Shown here one piece after another: positions 6,173 through 32,121 of a DNA stretch of 46,228 nucleotides. Numbering within the stretch: position 1 is the first letter of the stretch; every line of letters begins with the position of its first letter. Location: the NCBI GenBank assembly GCA_018333535.1, contig JAGXTA010000079.1, forward strand, positions 1 to 46,228, read 5' to 3'. The DNA is from Deltaproteobacteria bacterium (GTDB lineage: Bacteria; Desulfobacterota; BSN033; UBA1163). The position numbers and the translations under genes were made by a program. Below the pieces are notes generated by a model that was not told the origin of the DNA, did not search any database, and was given only the letters and a program-made list of their open reading frames with translations.

Positions 6173-6685
6173 CTATTTAATCATCCTCTTCTCCCGCCAG
6201 AGACGGTCAAACTCTTTCTGGTAGGAATCCACCAGATCGATGTCCTGAATGATTAAAAGGCTCTCATAATTTCCTTTCCAAGAGCCTTCCGACCAGTCAT
6301 GGGGGCCGGTGATGACTTTTTTCCCATCAAGGATGGCGAAGCGATGGTTCATCGTCCCTTTCTCTTTTTCGCCGAGGGTTTTTACGGAGATCCCCTGCTT
6401 GATCAGAAGGTTGACTTTTGAAGTTTTTACCCTGGCCCGTTTTGAATCCGTAACCACACGGATCTTGACGCCCCGCTCTTTTGCCTTGATCAGGGCCTGG
6501 ACTAAATGGATTGAAGTGATTTCATAGAGGGCAAGATCAAGGGTTTTAGCAAGCAACTCGATCTCGTTCAGGAGGGTCTCCCGGATGTTCACCTCTGCGG
6601 AAAAGAGGGTTTCGATTTCTGCAATCGCCTGAGAACCGACAAGGGATAACGATAAAAAGAGAAGGGGGAGGAAAATCCTCTTCAT
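6173..6685 (-). CDS. Exported phospholipase D-like protein with a degenerate HKD motif
   Basis: This 170-aa protein has a signal peptide (MKRIF, a leucine-rich core, likely cleavage near residue 22) and a single PLD/Nuc-type domain. The fold signatures are visible: L-A-L-Y-E-I-T-S near residue 51, the parallel strand K-I-R-V-V-T-D, and a final M-N-H-R-F-A-I-L-D-G segment. Where the family has H-x-K-x4-D, this protein has N113-H-R115-F-A-I-L-D120, so both the catalytic histidine and lysine are replaced. It may be a binding or structural variant, or catalysis may differ. Its ATG overlaps the stop of the upstream membrane protein (ATGA), indicating translational coupling. Confidence 0.8.
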   Translation of the reverse strand: MKRIFLPLLFLSLSLVGSQAIAEIETLFSAEVNIRETLLNEIELLAKTLDLALYEITSIHLVQALIKAKERGVKIRVVTDSKRARVKTSKVNLLIKQGISVKTLGEKEKGTMNHRFAILDGKKVITGPHDWSEGSWKGNYESLLIIQDIDLVDSYQKEFDRLWREKRMIK

Positions 6686-6993
6686 CTCTTACCCTCGCTG
6701 ATCGTGTTACTCGATTTATAGAAAAAATAGGCCGCTGCTCCATTAAAGGTGATGAGAACCGAAAGGGCCAGCCACAGGGGCCCGTGGAGATAAAGAAAGT
6801 AAGAGAGGGAGAAACTGACCAGGATGAAGAGGCTTCCCAGAATATAAATGATATATTGCCTCCACCTGAAAAATTTACTTATTTCCTTCAGTCCATCCAT
6901 GAAGTAAAGAATAAAGAGGACCAGGGCGATCAGGACAAAAGAGAAGAGGACAAAATAAAGAAAACTCAAATCGATGAATGAAAAGGATTCCAT
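6682..6993 (-). CDS. Small membrane protein of unknown function
   Basis: This 103-aa protein is very hydrophobic, with three probable transmembrane segments (residues about 10-32, 47-66 and 70-92). A basic stretch K-F-F-R-W-R-Q lies between the first two, and the C-terminus E-G-K-R is charged. I do not recognise a family. It starts 71 bases after the hybrid kinase stop on the same strand and overlaps the PLD-like gene by four bases, so it may belong to the kinase operon. The Shine-Dalgarno is weak (AGG). It could anchor or assist the exported PLD-like protein, but that is only inferred from position. Confidence 0.65.
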   Translation of the reverse strand: MESFSFIDLSFLYFVLFSFVLIALVLFILYFMDGLKEISKFFRWRQYIIYILGSLFILVSFSLSYFLYLHGPLWLALSVLITFNGAAAYFFYKSSNTISEGKR

Positions 6994-7064
6994 AAGTTTT
7001 ACCTATCGTCTGATTGAGTCTTTCATGTGACCCGCTTCAATGTCAAGATCAATCTTCTGAGGCG

Positions 7065-10000
7065 CTACGCACTGAATTCGACCTTCTCCGAAACCAACCT
7101 TATAATCTTATTGAAATCAAAAGGTTTTGTGATAATAAAATCGAGGCCTGATTCTTCTTTCTTGATCTCATCCACTTCCAGCCCCCATCCTGTGATCATC
7201 CCCACCGGTGTGGAGGATTTTATTTTCTTAATGCTCTTGCACACCTCCCAGCCTGACATCCCTGGCATTCCCAGGTCGGTCAGGACAATGTCAAACTTCT
7301 TTTCACCAAAGAGTCGAACCCCTTCTTCGCCGCTTTTGGCCACGGTGACCTGATGGTTGACCTGTGAAAGCATCTTTTCAAGCACTTCTCTCACCGTATC
7401 CTCATCATCGATCACCAAGATTCGGGCGGGTTTCCCCGGTTTAATCAGGTCGTGGGACACCACCATCTCTCTTCCTTCTAAGGCAACAGGCAGGACAATG
7501 GTAAAGGCTGTCCCGGATCCGACCTTGCTCTCAACTCTAATCTCTCCATTAAAACGCCTGATGATGCCATAGGACATGCTTAATCCGAGACCGGTATTTG
7601 AAAAGGGTTTCGTCGTAAAGAAGGGCTCAAAAATCTTCTTTCTGTTCTCTTCATCCATTCCGATGCCGGTATCGGCAATCCGGATATGAACCTCCTCTCC
7701 TTTCTGAAAGGTTTGAAATTCAATCGTTCCCCCCTGGGGCATGGCCTCCACGGCATTGAAGATCAAATTGGTGATGACCTCCCTTAATTCAGAGGCATCC
7801 CCGGCCACTCCAGGCACTTCTCCTAATGATGATAATACCTCAATGTGAACCCCTTTGCCCTGGGCATCGTTTCGCCATTTGGGCTTGGTGATCTCGATGG
7901 CATCTTTTACGATGGCATTGGCGTCGAGCTTAAAAAGTTCCTGGCGGGCCTTCTTTCGGGTAAACTCCTGAAGTCGCTTGACCGTTTTAGCGCTGTCCTT
8001 TGTCACCTTTTCAATCGTCTTGAGGGCTTCTCTGGTCTCTTCATCCTGCGCATTATAGAGAAGAAGTTGAGTGTTACCAAGAATCGCGGCCAGGGCATTG
8101 TTAAAATCGTGAGCCACGCCGCTCGCCATCTCTCCCAGGGATCGAAGTTTCTCAGTCTGGAGCAACTGTTCCTCCATCTTTTTCTTTTCAGTAATATCTT
8201 TCACAAAAACGATATAATCCATCTCACTTTCCGAACTTTTCATCACTCTTGCATTGATCTCTATGTTACGGATATCTCCGTCCTTGCGTATAGCATTCAA
8301 TTCAAAACTGGTCGATAATTTTTCTCCTCTCCCCCACCGAGCAAAGCGATCTGCCATCAATCGTTTGCTCTCTTCATCCACTAAATCGCAAAAATCCTTC
8401 CCGATCAATTCCTCCCGAGGATAACCTTGGATTTCTGTTAATCTTTGATTGACAAACTTTAATCGGTTATCTTTCTCAATCACGCAGATACCATCGTGGG
8501 CTCCCTCCACCACCGTCCTGTATCTCTCTTCGGATTGCTTCATCTCTTCAAGCAAAAGAGCATTCTGGATGGAGATGGCCAATCCAGGTACAATCTGTTG
8601 AAGTATATTGAGATGTCTCTCTGAAAAGTGGCTGGTCGCCTTACACCCGAAATTCAACGTGCCGAAGATCTTTTCTTTATACTCCAATGGAAGAACCAGG
8701 GAAGAACGAATTCCCTCTTTCAGTAATTTTTGACTGGTCCAGTAATCACTTTCTTCCGTATTTGAGATGATGACCGGAAGACCCATTTGCGCCGCTTTTT
8801 CGGAAGGGGTCCCTTTCAGGGGGTATGTGACACCTTCCATCAATTCTTTAATTTCATAGTCTTTATCTAATGCAAAAAATCGAAAGCCTTCCACATCCTT
8901 ATCGAAAATGGCAATGGTCATCCTTTCTGAATCCAGGACTTTCTTCAATTCAGAATGGACTGCCCTGAACACCTCTCTGACATCGAGGCTGGAGGCTAAT
9001 ATTTTATAAACATTATTGATTACCTCTTTCTCAATCCCCATCCTTTTCTCTTCGGTGACCTCCCTCGCCATGTCAACCACTATAATCTCTTCATTAGACT
9101 CATCATAGATTGGATAAGTATAGTATTGGAAGATGCCGTTTAAATATTTGCTTTCCCGTTCGCCTGATGCGGGTCTTCCCGTTTTCAGAGTCTCGGTGAC
9201 ATAGCATCCCTCGCAGGGGGATGAGAGATGATGCAGGATTTCATAACATTTCTTGCCGATGATCTTGTCTGGCCCCACTCCCCATCTTCTAAAAGCGGCT
9301 TTGTTGGCTCGAAGGACACGGTAATCCCTGTCCCGGATGGTGATGAGGTCGGTCACCGTATCGAAGGTCGTCTCCCATTCGGACTTGGCCTTTTCCACGG
9401 ATGAAAAGAGCTTTGCATTTTGGAGGGCCATTCCGACCTGATTCCCGAGACTTTCAAACAGGTGGACCTCATTCTGTCCGAGAAGACGATCAGAACGGCT
9501 GGTCAAGCAGATGGCGCCAACTGCTTCTCCCTTGGAAAGCAAGGGAATCCCCACCAGTGATTTCACCTTTTCTTCAATCAGGCTTGGAAGCATGCGTGGA
9601 GAAGGATATTGGTCGATCGACAAGGTGATGACCTCTTTTTTGTCAACAGCCGAACCCACAACCCCCTCGCCCCGCTTAAGTCTTTTCACCTCTTCCGCCA
9701 GATGGGATGGGTAGTTTTTATGAAACTTTAGATCCAGCCACTGCCTATCGTCACTGACAAGATAGATGGTCCCCATCTCAAACCCTGTCAGGGTCAATAC
9801 TCTTTCCAGTGCCATGGGGAGAATCTGGTCTAAATTCAGGGTCTGGTTGATCAAGACACTTAAATCATAAAGGGTTTCGAGTTCCTTCGTTCTCTGAAAA
9901 AGCTCTTCTTCCATTATTTTCCGATAAGAGATATTTTTAATGGTTCCTTCATAACCGATGATGTTTCCCTCCCCATCCCTTCTTGCAGTAGCAGTGATGA

Positions 10001-11336
10001 GGCAGTCCAGAGGAACTCCATCCTTTCTCTTCAACCTGACTTCAAAATCCTTCGCAAATCCTTTCTGAGCCACCTCCTCCTGGAATCTCCCCCTGTCTTC
10101 CGGCTTGACATAGGTATCTCGAACACTTATCCCCCTCACCTCTTCTCTGGTGCTGTAACCAAACATCTCTGCTCCGGCCTGGTTGACCTCTATGAATTTA
10201 CCGTCCTGAGAGGTGATGAAGACCATATCCTTCGAGTTTTCAAAGATCATCCGGTATTTTCCTTCTGCCTCTTTGATGGCGTTCTGAGATTGCTTTAAAT
10301 CTTTCACCATTTGGTTGAAGGATTGGGTGAGTTGTCCGACTTCATCTTTCGTGGAAGGCTCAATGTGAACATTTAAATTCCCCCCGGATACCCTCGCCAT
10401 CTCGCCCGACAGTTGTTTGATCGGGGAAGTTAATCGTCTTGTGAGAAAGAGACTGAACGCAAAAGCCAGAACAAAGGCGATGATAATCCATTTAATTGCT
10501 GTGTGAGCAATTTCTCTGAGAGGTTTGTAGGCTTCTTCAACAGGAATCTGGACAATGACTCCCCATTTCAATTCATGAATGGGTTTATAGACCACCAGAT
10601 ATTTCTGTCCCCTGGTATTTTCAAACTCCAGACTGCCCTCTTTCCCTGCGATCACCCAGTCCACAAAGGGGCCAAGAAGAATATTTTTTTCATTGGGATG
10701 GGCAATCAGATACCCCTCTTGATCCGTCACATAAGTTGAACCCTTTTCACCAATCTTCGTTTGATACAACAAATTAGTTAAGGGTTCGAGATAGATCCTC
10801 GCCTTCAATACGCCAACCGATTTCTCTTTATATTTTTCAACCGGAACGGCAACCACCATGGACGGTTTCCCGTCCGAAGTATAATAAAAATTTCCGTAAT
10901 AAATTTGTCCCTTTGAAGCCACCTGAAACATCTGACTCGTGGATTGGTCTTTCGGATCGATGGTCTTCTCTGTTTTAAATTTAGAAACCTTAATCTTTTC
11001 AAATCCTTTTTCATTCAGTAAAGTCCATTCCATAAGATAATCTGTCCGAGAAAGAACGCTGTTTAAATGGTCTTTCGTATGAGATGAATCGGTCCTTAAG
11101 AAATGTTCATCACCTGCAAAGAGCAGTAGATCGCTGGTGGCTCTTTCTAAGAAGTCTTTCGTTTTCTCTGCTACTCTATTTGCTTTCTCTTTCTGAAGAT
11201 TAATGACGGATTCCTTTAAATCTTCCTGATAGACCTGGACGATATTGATTCCTGCAATGACCAGGGGAATCGTGGCCAGGAGAATGGAAAAGGTCATCCA
11301 TTTGAAAGTGATGCTTTTTCCAATGCCTCTCATCAT
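7065..11336 (-). CDS. Large hybrid sensor histidine kinase (Cache-HAMP-PAS-GAF-PAS-GAF-PAS-HisKA-HATPase-REC)
   Basis: This 1423-aa membrane kinase has, by rough residue positions: TM 12-34; a periplasmic dCache-like sensor 35-275; TM 283-303; HAMP 304-356; PAS 365-480; GAF 490-640; PAS 650-770; GAF 775-930; PAS 935-1055; HisKA about 1060-1130 with the histidine in G-V-A-H-D-F-N-N; HATPase to about 1285; and a receiver from about 1300 (V-I-D-D-E-D, phospho-Asp in L-T-D-L-G-M-P-G-M-S). The second PAS contains S-P-C-E-G-C, a possible redox or metal pair. The frame opens at 11390, but the ATG at 11336 overlaps the stop of the upstream HTH gene (TGATG) and has AGGGGAGGAG just before it, so it was chosen. 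The ligand is unknown. Confidence 0.93.
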   Translation of the reverse strand: MMRGIGKSITFKWMTFSILLATIPLVIAGINIVQVYQEDLKESVINLQKEKANRVAEKTKDFLERATSDLLLFAGDEHFLRTDSSHTKDHLNSVLSRTDYLMEWTLLNEKGFEKIKVSKFKTEKTIDPKDQSTSQMFQVASKGQIYYGNFYYTSDGKPSMVVAVPVEKYKEKSVGVLKARIYLEPLTNLLYQTKIGEKGSTYVTDQEGYLIAHPNEKNILLGPFVDWVIAGKEGSLEFENTRGQKYLVVYKPIHELKWGVIVQIPVEEAYKPLREIAHTAIKWIIIAFVLAFAFSLFLTRRLTSPIKQLSGEMARVSGGNLNVHIEPSTKDEVGQLTQSFNQMVKDLKQSQNAIKEAEGKYRMIFENSKDMVFITSQDGKFIEVNQAGAEMFGYSTREEVRGISVRDTYVKPEDRGRFQEEVAQKGFAKDFEVRLKRKDGVPLDCLITATARRDGEGNIIGYEGTIKNISYRKIMEEELFQRTKELETLYDLSVLINQTLNLDQILPMALERVLTLTGFEMGTIYLVSDDRQWLDLKFHKNYPSHLAEEVKRLKRGEGVVGSAVDKKEVITLSIDQYPSPRMLPSLIEEKVKSLVGIPLLSKGEAVGAICLTSRSDRLLGQNEVHLFESLGNQVGMALQNAKLFSSVEKAKSEWETTFDTVTDLITIRDRDYRVLRANKAAFRRWGVGPDKIIGKKCYEILHHLSSPCEGCYVTETLKTGRPASGERESKYLNGIFQYYTYPIYDESNEEIIVVDMAREVTEEKRMGIEKEVINNVYKILASSLDVREVFRAVHSELKKVLDSERMTIAIFDKDVEGFRFFALDKDYEIKELMEGVTYPLKGTPSEKAAQMGLPVIISNTEESDYWTSQKLLKEGIRSSLVLPLEYKEKIFGTLNFGCKATSHFSERHLNILQQIVPGLAISIQNALLLEEMKQSEERYRTVVEGAHDGICVIEKDNRLKFVNQRLTEIQGYPREELIGKDFCDLVDEESKRLMADRFARWGRGEKLSTSFELNAIRKDGDIRNIEINARVMKSSESEMDYIVFVKDITEKKKMEEQLLQTEKLRSLGEMASGVAHDFNNALAAILGNTQLLLYNAQDEETREALKTIEKVTKDSAKTVKRLQEFTRKKARQELFKLDANAIVKDAIEITKPKWRNDAQGKGVHIEVLSSLGEVPGVAGDASELREVITNLIFNAVEAMPQGGTIEFQTFQKGEEVHIRIADTGIGMDEENRKKIFEPFFTTKPFSNTGLGLSMSYGIIRRFNGEIRVESKVGSGTAFTIVLPVALEGREMVVSHDLIKPGKPARILVIDDEDTVREVLEKMLSQVNHQVTVAKSGEEGVRLFGEKKFDIVLTDLGMPGMSGWEVCKSIKKIKSSTPVGMITGWGLEVDEIKKEESGLDFIITKPFDFNKIIRLVSEKVEFSA

Positions 11337-11518
11337 CAATTCTCCTCCCCTTTTAGGAAGCGGTTCAACTCGGACAGAAGCACTCTCCATCCTTTTCCCG
11401 CCTTAGCCGCCTTGATCCTTCCGAGATGGACATATTTGAGAAAGGTGGGTTTGGAGATCTTCAGATATTCGATGGCATCCTCTGTGGTTAATACCTGATC
11501 TTTTTCCATTATGGACAT
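11336..11518 (-). CDS. Excisionase/MerR-type helix-turn-helix DNA-binding protein
   Basis: This 60-aa protein consists of one winged-HTH of the excisionase (HTH_17) type: L-T-T-E-D-A-I-E-Y-L-K-I-S-K-P-T-F-L-K-Y forms the helix-turn-helix, and G-R-I-K-A-A-K-A-G-K-G-W-R-V forms the wing. A good GGAGG lies seven bases before the ATG. Its stop codon overlaps the kinase start (TGATG), so the two are translationally coupled. Family members act as small DNA-binding adaptors, in phage excision or as stand-alone regulators. No integrase is nearby, so a regulatory role tied to the kinase is more likely. That role is inference. Confidence 0.85.
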   Translation of the reverse strand: MSIMEKDQVLTTEDAIEYLKISKPTFLKYVHLGRIKAAKAGKGWRVLLSELNRFLKGEEN

Positions 11519-11555
11519 CGAATTGCCTCCACTTTTCCAGAGTTCCCTATAAAAA

Positions 11556-11570
11556 GCAAAATATGTGCCA
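11556..11570 (-). promoter_or_regulatory. Sigma-54 (-24/-12) promoter for the HTH-kinase operon
   Basis: On the minus strand TGGCAC (11570-11565), five bases, then TTGC (11559-11556) match the RpoN consensus TGGCAC-N5-TTGC exactly, continuing as TTGCTTTTT. Predicted initiation would fall some 25-30 bases before the HTH start codon at 11518. Such promoters need an enhancer-binding activator, which was not found in the window. Confidence 0.8.
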
Positions 11571-11730
11571 AAGAAGCTGGCGCCTACTAATTAGCTCGTA
11601 ACTACCCGACTTTAAATAATTGTTTTTTATAAGATTTGGAGAAGTAAAATGGGGAAAAGTCCGGCTAAAAACGACAAACTGTCAATGATGGAACATTATT
11701 GGTCATGTGAAGGGGAAAAAAGGAAGGAAC

Positions 11731-12231
11731 CTACATCTTATAATCACCGAAGTCATCCGGGTTCATATTCTCAATAATCGTCTTAAGTTCATCCTGTTCG
11801 TCTAAAAATCTGGAGGCCAGGAGACCCAGGCTTTTCGTCGCCTCTACAACCGACTGCGTGATAAAAATGGGCGCCTTTACCCTGACTGCCAGGGCAATCG
11901 CATCACTCGGCCGGCTATCTACAATGAGTTCTTTTCCATCAACATTAAAATGAAGTTTGGCGTAAAAAGTATTCTCTTTGATATCATTGATGACAACTCG
12001 GATGAGGGAAGTGTGGAGAGTATCGAGAATCTGTTTGAGGAGATCGTGCGTCATGGGACGAAGCGTCACCACATCTTCAAGGCCCCTGGAGATCGCCTCT
12101 GCCTCAAAGACTCCAATCCAGATGGGCAGGGCTTTCTGACCCTCCAGGTCCACTAAAACGACGACAGGGTTCGAAGCCTTGGCATCGACCACGATCCCCA
12201 TCACTTTCACTTCCATCAGTTCCTGTTCCAT
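11731..12231 (-). CDS. Bifunctional nuclease family protein (DUF151/BFN domain)
   Basis: This 166-aa protein of the DUF151 family has members reported to have DNase/RNase activity. The core contains V-V-L-V-D-L-E-G-Q-K-A-L-P-I-W-I-G near residue 23, E-A-x-A-I-S-R-G-L, then R-P-M-T-H-D-L-L. The most diagnostic segment is D-S-R-P-S-D-A-I-A-L-A-V-R near residue 105. The last 35 residues are an acidic tail. The frame is open to 12282, but the upstream codons lie in an AT-rich repeat; the ATG at 12231 begins at M-E-Q-E-L-M-E-V-K-V, the normal family N-terminus. The gene stands alone. Confidence 0.87.
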   Translation of the reverse strand: MEQELMEVKVMGIVVDAKASNPVVVLVDLEGQKALPIWIGVFEAEAISRGLEDVVTLRPMTHDLLKQILDTLHTSLIRVVINDIKENTFYAKLHFNVDGKELIVDSRPSDAIALAVRVKAPIFITQSVVEATKSLGLLASRFLDEQDELKTIIENMNPDDFGDYKM

Positions 12232-30804: not shown

Positions 30805-32121
30805 TCACCGGGATGCCGCCACGAGCAATGCCCGGGCCTCAGAAGCGGTTAATCTCGCTGGCGCATAAGAGCCGTCGAATTCGAAGAGCCTTCTGGCTTC
30901 CTTGATTTTTGCCTCCGCTCTACCTACATCAACTCCCTTCTTCTTTGCGGCATCGATTTCGCCTTCCACTTCCTCAATGAGGAAGAGACTGCTTTTCAAT
31001 TCGCGAAACTTCCGGTAGATCTCGAACTCAAAGTAACGGTTGACATCATCCCACCTCTTCGCGGCCAGCTCCAGATTATAATCGATGAATCCCACCTTCA
31101 AATCCCAGAAGGAGTCCACCCCAAGAGCATCACGAGCGTGCTTGGCCATCGTCACACCTTCTTTTTCCCATACGGAAAATTTGATGTCTGTCCTCGCCGT
31201 AAAATAACGGCCCTCTAACACATATTTTTGTCCTTCCATGCTGAACAGCCAGTCCAGGAAGATCTTTCCGTTGGCCTCATTGGGAGCGTTTTTCAGCAAA
31301 GCCACTGCCTCGGGGACCAGGATCGTTTTATCAGGGAGTAAATCACGCACAGGATATCCATCTGCGCGCGCACTCATTGCATTCATCTGCGGTTGTGCAA
31401 TACCAATCGGAACTTCCCCCCTGCTGACCATATGAGTGGTATCAACGCTTCCAGTGGAGAATCTGGCTAACTGAGCCGCCAGAAGCCGGTTGTATGCCCA
31501 GCCCTCTTTCTCCCCAAAAGATTGAAGATGGATTTCAATCACTTCGTGCTGTGTCCCTGAGGCATAGGGCAAGGTTTGAACGATTAAGTCTCTGTAAATC
31601 GGGTTAAGCAATTCCTTCCAGGTCTTTGGAGCCGGCAATTTTAATGCCTTCAGGACCCTTTCATTATAAAGATTGGTCACGATCCAGGGCGCAAAACAGG
31701 TCCACATGAATTTTTCATCTTTAACCTTCATGCCGCCCCATTTATCCGGAATCTTGTCCCAATCCTTGGGTTTATAAGGAACAATGAAACCCTCTTTATC
31801 TAAAACCTCGAAGGCGGGAGCACCGGCCCCCAAAAATACATCTGCATCAGGCTTGCCCTTCCAGGCCCGCACCTTATCTACGCACACCGGCCATCCGCCG
31901 GGTCTGACGAAGGTGATCTCGATCTCTTTTCCGTAGGTTTTTTTGTAATACTCCTTAAAACCTTTCATCAAACTGTCGGAAAGCTCTTTGTAAACCGGCC
32001 CGACCCAACCCACCTTCTCTTTCTGGGCCTGAACTTCCATCGGAGACACCAGAAGACACATTAAAAAAGGCAGTAAAAACAGTGCAGAAACTCTCGTAAA
32101 GATTTTCCCTTTCATTTTCAT
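30805..32121 (-). CDS. Extracellular solute-binding protein, FbpA/AfuA-like, with helical C-terminal extension
   Basis: This 438-aa binding protein has a signal peptide (M-K-M-K-G-K, hydrophobic core, cleavage after V-Q-A-Q). The binding domain shows the family segments R-P-G-G-W-P, K-P-D-A-D-V-F-L-G-A-G, W-I-V-T-N-L-Y-N-E-R and P-K-T-W-K-E-L-L. After about residue 370 it carries an unusual charged helical tail (E-E-V-E-G-E-I-D-A-A-K-K-K-G-V-D-V-G, then A-K-I-K-E-A-R). The frame is open to 32175, but ATG 32121 has AAGGAGGG seven bases upstream. Iron(III) or an organic or phosphonate ligand are all possible. Confidence 0.87.
   Translation of the reverse strand: MKMKGKIFTRVSALFLLPFLMCLLVSPMEVQAQKEKVGWVGPVYKELSDSLMKGFKEYYKKTYGKEIEITFVRPGGWPVCVDKVRAWKGKPDADVFLGAGAPAFEVLDKEGFIVPYKPKDWDKIPDKWGGMKVKDEKFMWTCFAPWIVTNLYNERVLKALKLPAPKTWKELLNPIYRDLIVQTLPYASGTQHEVIEIHLQSFGEKEGWAYNRLLAAQLARFSTGSVDTTHMVSRGEVPIGIAQPQMNAMSARADGYPVRDLLPDKTILVPEAVALLKNAPNEANGKIFLDWLFSMEGQKYVLEGRYFTARTDIKFSVWEKEGVTMAKHARDALGVDSFWDLKVGFIDYNLELAAKRWDDVNRYFEFEIYRKFRELKSSLFLIEEVEGEIDAAKKKGVDVGRAEAKIKEARRLFEFDGSYAPARLTASEARALLVAASR

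Follow-up and report, generated by a model that had tools for sequence, protein, structure and literature searches.

A small BldC/Xis-type helix-turn-helix gene heads a predicted sigma-54 signalling operon in a Deltaproteobacteria bacterium

The window analyzed here, the whole 46,228-nucleotide stretch of contig JAGXTA010000079.1 from a Deltaproteobacteria bacterium, carries on its minus strand the genes for a helix-turn-helix (HTH) protein, a hybrid kinase, a small membrane protein and a PLD-fold protein, with the following features in and ahead of them:

11672..11685, minus strand: TTGACAGTTTGTCG palindrome, candidate enhancer (upstream activating) site, conserved ahead of orthologues
11599..11625, minus strand: AT-rich block aligned with the IHF-like sites of relatives, best local match at 11613-11625
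11555..11570, minus strand: -24/-12 (sigma-54) element TGGCACATATTTTGCT, 0 mismatches, position conserved in orthologues
11336..11518, minus strand: HTH gene, 60 aa, HTH_17 winged-helix protein with a BldC/Xis-like fold (PF12728, 9e-13; TIGR01764, 1.2e-10)
7065..11336, minus strand: hybrid histidine kinase, 1423 aa, membrane-anchored, assigned by Pfam domains, phosphorylation motifs and two hydrophobic segments
6682..6993, minus strand: 103-aa protein, three hydrophobic segments, two of them strong and one weaker
6173..6685, minus strand: PLD-fold protein, 170 aa, secreted-type, with a degraded HKD motif (PLDc_2, 1.7e-22)

Re-read from the sequence, the 4 genes and the -24/-12 site lie where the initial annotation had placed them, and the gene junctions that it described were recovered as well: the HTH stop and the kinase ATG have one A in common (TTGATGATG), the kinase gene is followed by a gap of 71 nt, and the genes for the 103-aa and PLD-fold proteins overlap by 4 nt. 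The kinase start chosen by the ORF caller (1441 aa) falls within the HTH gene; the length of 1423 aa is counted from the ATG at the HTH stop. Neighboring genes in the window encode BFN-domain, thioesterase, kinase and FAD oxidoreductase proteins (based on Pfam) as well as TRAP-transporter-like proteins (by inspection), and the genes upstream of the HTH operon are syntenic in relatives. An Rfam scan of the window region gave no match.

The Pfam domains of the kinase are arranged in the order dCache_1, HAMP, PAS, GAF, PAS, GAF, PAS, HisKA, HATPase_c and Response_reg, with hydrophobic segments at residues about 9-36 and 275-303. The H-box, the N and G boxes and the receiver D and K are all present, as befits a hybrid histidine kinase. 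The 103-aa protein matched no known family in Pfam or TIGRFAM, and ORFs of 99-107 aa resembling it come after the kinase in 2 loci of relatives (L050 and L052). The PLD-fold protein displays NHRFAILD...TGPHD where HxK(x4)D...GSxN is expected, so that the HxKx4D catalytic motif of NucT-like PLD nucleases is missing from its 170 residues. Because the HKD motif is degraded in the copies of relatives as well, this protein is probably not a nuclease and perhaps serves as a binding or structural protein.

The 60-aa protein matches HTH_17 (PF12728, E = 9e-13) and, with 41.6 bits against a cut-off of 28.8, the excisionase family TIGR01764. The structure model built from the single sequence was poor (pLDDT 73), and an alignment-based model was used instead (pLDDT 91), displaying a helix-helix-hairpin-helix arrangement. 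Its best fold matches by Z were BldC (Z 8.2; 54 residues aligned, rmsd 1.7, 17% identical), RdfS (Z 7.3) and Pukovnik Xis (Z 7.3). For a fold this small, a Z near 8 denotes the fold class and says nothing of function. A sequence search against solved structures yielded only a marginal Gp37/Xis match. As modeled, the protein is a stand-alone MerR-like winged HTH of under about 70 aa without a coiled coil, in keeping with the BldC type, and it carries no extra domain or phosphoacceptor. The sequence SKPTFLKYI...KAGKGWRVL, which holds the recognition and wing residues, shows strong conservation among paralogues, and for this reason they probably share binding sites. The Pfam assignments of the genes examined around the HTH gene include no recombinase, and these neighbors give it neither a partner recombinase nor a mobile-element setting; the earlier label "Xis-like" thus holds for the fold and the Pfam/TIGRFAM family only.

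Within the window, the -24/-12 pattern with ≤1 mismatch occurs twice, compared with 1.0 match expected, and a single site in 46 kb is not significant alone. Across the genome, the strict pattern has 36 matches versus 2 for the reversed control, some of them preceding genes that, from a look at the protein starts, resemble amtB, glnA and a pilin gene. The site is kept at a near-fixed spacing to the start codon in the upstream regions of orthologues. In a survey of the HTH family (GG and GC fixed, ≤3 mismatches, within 95 nt upstream), 59/62 copies had a site versus 8/300 neighboring control genes (Fisher p about 5e-55, a value overstated because the copies share ancestry and amount to about 7 effective sequences), and on this comparison a chance origin was rejected. 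A -24/-12 site is missing from all of 7 other HTH_17 genes in the genome, and the minus strand gave no sigma-70-like promoter from 11518 to 11731. The genome encodes a single rpoN, and about 20 AAA+ activators gave strong Sigma54_activat matches. Collectively, the site with 0 mismatches, the family comparison and the presence of rpoN and activators support the earlier assignment of a predicted sigma-54 promoter driving the HTH operon. Such promoters are described as being under the control of activators acting from a distance.

Searches with the first 350 residues of the kinase revealed 13 copies at ≥44% identity in 13 genomes, both counts including that of the window. The upstream region was readable for 12 of them, the 13th being located at a contig end, and all 12 reside in an HTH operon, so the coupling of HTH and kinase is conserved in relatives. 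In 3 of the orthologous operons (L050, L053 and L056), an ABC_sub_bind-type gene is located between the HTH gene and the dCache kinase gene, an arrangement that suggests a periplasmic co-sensor.

The HTH subfamily is present in 23/23 genomes of the class examined, with 1-5 copies in each; 3 further copies are encoded by the genome under study (58-76% identical), and the protein itself is 85-92% identical across most of the genus. In the rest of the phylum, the subfamily was recovered (E ≤ 1e-20) from only 3 sampled genomes, all from one other family: in 2 of these copies, a -24/-12 site lies 48-58 nt ahead of the gene, and the third has kept the leader and has no match. More distant HTH relatives outside the class mostly have no such site nearby. 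The conservation within the genus and the class, together with that of the promoter and the coupling, argues against the HTH being a leftover excisionase (recombination directionality factor) or a small HTH that came along as a hitch-hiker and plays no part in the operon, as does the lack of a recombinase among the neighboring genes examined. Although the TIGR01764 match and the ranking of RdfS and Xis among the closest folds point toward such an origin, it was already disfavored and we regard it as highly improbable.

Among the paralogues, the promoter and the HTH gene are constant, whereas the downstream gene varies. The HTH copies are followed by hybrid kinases, by an Hpt together with a REC-PAS-kinase-REC protein, by HEAT and HD-GYP-type proteins, or by REC-GGDEF, CutA1 and GmrSD-type genes, the partners being mostly two-component or c-di-GMP signalling proteins. 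In 3 relatives (L090, L093 and L096 of f2), the HTH is fused to PilZ in a protein of about 180 aa, with PilZ genes clustering nearby; such a fusion would be a c-di-GMP-binding DNA-binding protein. In another locus (L084), the genes headed by an HTH copy that has a -24/-12 site encode a GmrSD-type nuclease and a UvrD/PD-(D/E)XK protein, possibly a defence island. In 2 genomes of a third family, an opposite-strand ORF comes right after the HTH gene, which appears from this arrangement to be monocistronic. In both, a c-di-GMP-I riboswitch (L097:2828-2906 and L101:2822-2900; RF03167, 67 bits; RF01051, 57.7 bits) lies about 20-30 nt after the -24/-12 site and ahead of the HTH gene. Given these apparently monocistronic copies behind a sigma-54 site and a riboswitch, the HTH can act alone.

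Two further HTH_17 genes of the same genome, both without a sigma-54 site, are found in a signalling setting. One (L012:7802-8374, C1) encodes a 190-aa HTH_17-receiver fusion. The other (L013:5689-7481, C6), a different gene for a 77-aa protein, abuts a REC-HisKA-HATPase-GGDEF gene, and the locus is, by its predicted domains, a second HTH_17-signalling pairing.

These observations bear on the possibility that the kinase has in the HTH a dedicated DNA-binding output, the two forming a split response regulator: the HTH would be bound by the kinase receiver, or by a phosphorelay partner, and its DNA binding controlled in this way. The overlap of the 2 genes is conserved in orthologues, the kinase ends in a receiver without an output domain, and the HTH_17-receiver fusion demonstrates that both domains do combine in this genome; furthermore, OvmW, a small HTH_17 protein of Streptomyces, is interdependent with the co-transcribed OvmZ (PMC8910723). 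However, the same subfamily precedes HEAT/HD-GYP, CutA1, GGDEF, PilZ or GmrSD genes and is apparently alone in 2 relatives, a periplasmic-type binding protein gene separates the HTH and the kinase in 3 orthologues, and the protein has neither an extra domain nor a phosphoacceptor. Of the 2 roles offered by the initial annotation, autoregulator and output of the hybrid kinase, the latter is weakened by these changing or absent partners, and we consider it improbable; a regulator of its own promoter class or of genes elsewhere fits. The HTH thus probably does not serve this kinase as a dedicated phospho-output, and a stand-alone regulator is preferred because partners change or go missing while promoter and HTH stay together.

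We searched the upstream regions for further elements, including an operator of the HTH. TGACAnnnTGTCA (≤2 mismatches) is found in 11/14 orthologous upstream regions, compared with 4.9% in shuffles, and all matches of the orthologues lie 110-114 nt upstream of the -24 box. It is also found in 6/7 C69-type paralogues; in the other paralogue groups, most members lack it. As an HTH operator it was rejected, because paralogue groups with a nearly identical HTH are without the palindrome; we read it as a candidate enhancer for an unlinked sigma-54 activator common to this operon and the C69-type operons. Elsewhere in the genome (C123, about 31372-31494), TGACAnnnTGTCA lies about 95 nt upstream of the sigma-54 site of a RodZ-like gene; judging from this arrangement, that gene is likely co-regulated by the same activator.

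The AT-rich block closer to the promoter contains the best IHF-like match of the region, AAACAATTATTTA at 11613-11625, with 1 mismatch to WATCAANNNNTTR, the match being weak in the window itself. Matches with ≤1 mismatch occur in 32/58 family promoters versus 11.6% in shuffles, mostly 25-45 nt upstream of the -24 box, and in 12 of 28 sigma-54 promoters without an HTH gene. Since the latter show a similar enrichment, the block is probably a general IHF element rather than specific to the HTH and was set aside as its operator. A de novo motif search from the -12 box to the start codon recovered only the ribosome-binding site and the ATG, gapless anchored conservation of the upstream regions revealed only the -24/-12 element as strong, and, although the upstream regions are AT-rich, the leader motif search yielded no operator of the direct-repeat kind. 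The HTH targets proposed below are those that we infer, as no operator was found, and the missing operator is the main gap of the stand-alone regulator model.

We propose that the HTH binds DNA as a stand-alone regulator, that sigma-54 activation sets its level, and that it feeds back on the signalling operon to which it belongs and on the sister operons; this proposal stands close to evenly balanced in our judgment. It builds on the observed gene order, overlap, promoter conservation, coupling and family-wide pattern, and on the predicted fold. The operon would belong to a set of sigma-54 signalling operons that spans the class and in which the first gene encodes a BldC/Xis-type protein. An unlinked AAA+ activator, here probably acting at TGACAnnnTGTCA with IHF-type bending, would switch on the -24/-12 promoter, and the HTH and the hybrid kinase would be made together through translational coupling, along with 2 envelope-associated proteins. 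The kinase would sense an extracytoplasmic signal with its dCache domain and hand phosphate on via its own receiver, the acceptor probably being a separate Hpt or response regulator. The HTH may work without phosphorylation, its amount, as set by sigma-54 activation, permitting cooperative binding of AT-rich DNA, and would control the sigma-54 promoters of its own operon and of the sister signalling operons, the feedback being most likely negative or shape-changing. The constancy of promoter and HTH with varying cargo fits a function that goes with the promoter and not with any single partner.

Proteins of the BldC type are able to act on targets far away, and autoregulation is therefore not required. 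The HTH might instead regulate unlinked genes only, as a class-specific pleiotropic regulator of the BldC kind, with its position at the head of a sigma-54 operon merely tying its synthesis to the signalling state. The apparently monocistronic copies with a c-di-GMP riboswitch agree with this alternative, and BldC itself is pleiotropic (PMC5859096). Restriction to unlinked targets would nevertheless leave unexplained why most copies occupy the first place in signalling operons of the same promoter class, and we consider it rather unlikely.

More tentatively, as a possible extension of the stand-alone regulator model, the subfamily may be a lineage-specific family of BldC-like micro-regulators constituting a built-in transcriptional governor of the sigma-54 network of the class. 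Promoter and HTH would form a portable cassette ahead of sensor kinases and c-di-GMP enzymes, the paralogues would cross-regulate, and c-di-GMP would enter through riboswitches and PilZ fusions. If true, tiny DNA-binders fixed at the head of sigma-54 signalling operons would represent a new layer of control, and the interchangeable sensor and c-di-GMP cargo would offer uncultured bacteria a simple route to plug new sensors into one network. The combination of the HTH subfamily with a -24/-12 site provides a sequence signature by which signalling operons can be found automatically. The recurrence of HTH-led operons with changing sensor partners points to an undescribed regulator family in a little-known class.

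Each part of this system is known. Literature searches on sigma-54 with HTH_17/excisionase proteins and kinases returned nothing relevant, with partial coverage of subscription papers; as far as these incomplete searches reach, the combination is without description, consistent with the pairing of HTH and kinase having been flagged as undescribed. Sigma-54 signalling operons are known from Desulfobacterota: the regulome of Desulfovibrio vulgaris includes -24/-12 promoters and AAA+ activators, of which many are two-component response regulators, but neither helix-turn-helix nor excisionase-type genes turned up in a text search of that study (PMC4641369). OvmW resembles the HTH in being a small HTH_17 protein co-transcribed with a regulator without a recognized DNA-binding domain, whereas OvmZ is no histidine kinase and the pair controls an actinobacterial antibiotic cluster without sigma-54 (PMC8910723). 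RdfS, as far as the available part of the source goes (PMC11963761), and phage Xis have the same fold (Z 7.3) and the same Pfam/TIGRFAM neighborhood, but act with tyrosine recombinases on mobile elements, whereas the HTH heads a conserved signalling operon with no recombinase nearby. BldC of Streptomyces is only 17% identical and, in the available part of its description, is not placed in a sigma-54 operon or beside a kinase; it has no dimerization domain and occupies AT-rich direct repeats in a head-to-tail manner (PMC5859096), whereas DNA binding by the HTH is predicted. It is nonetheless the closest fold, and, as described there, it shares with the HTH the plan of a small winged-HTH protein with neither a dimerization nor an effector domain.
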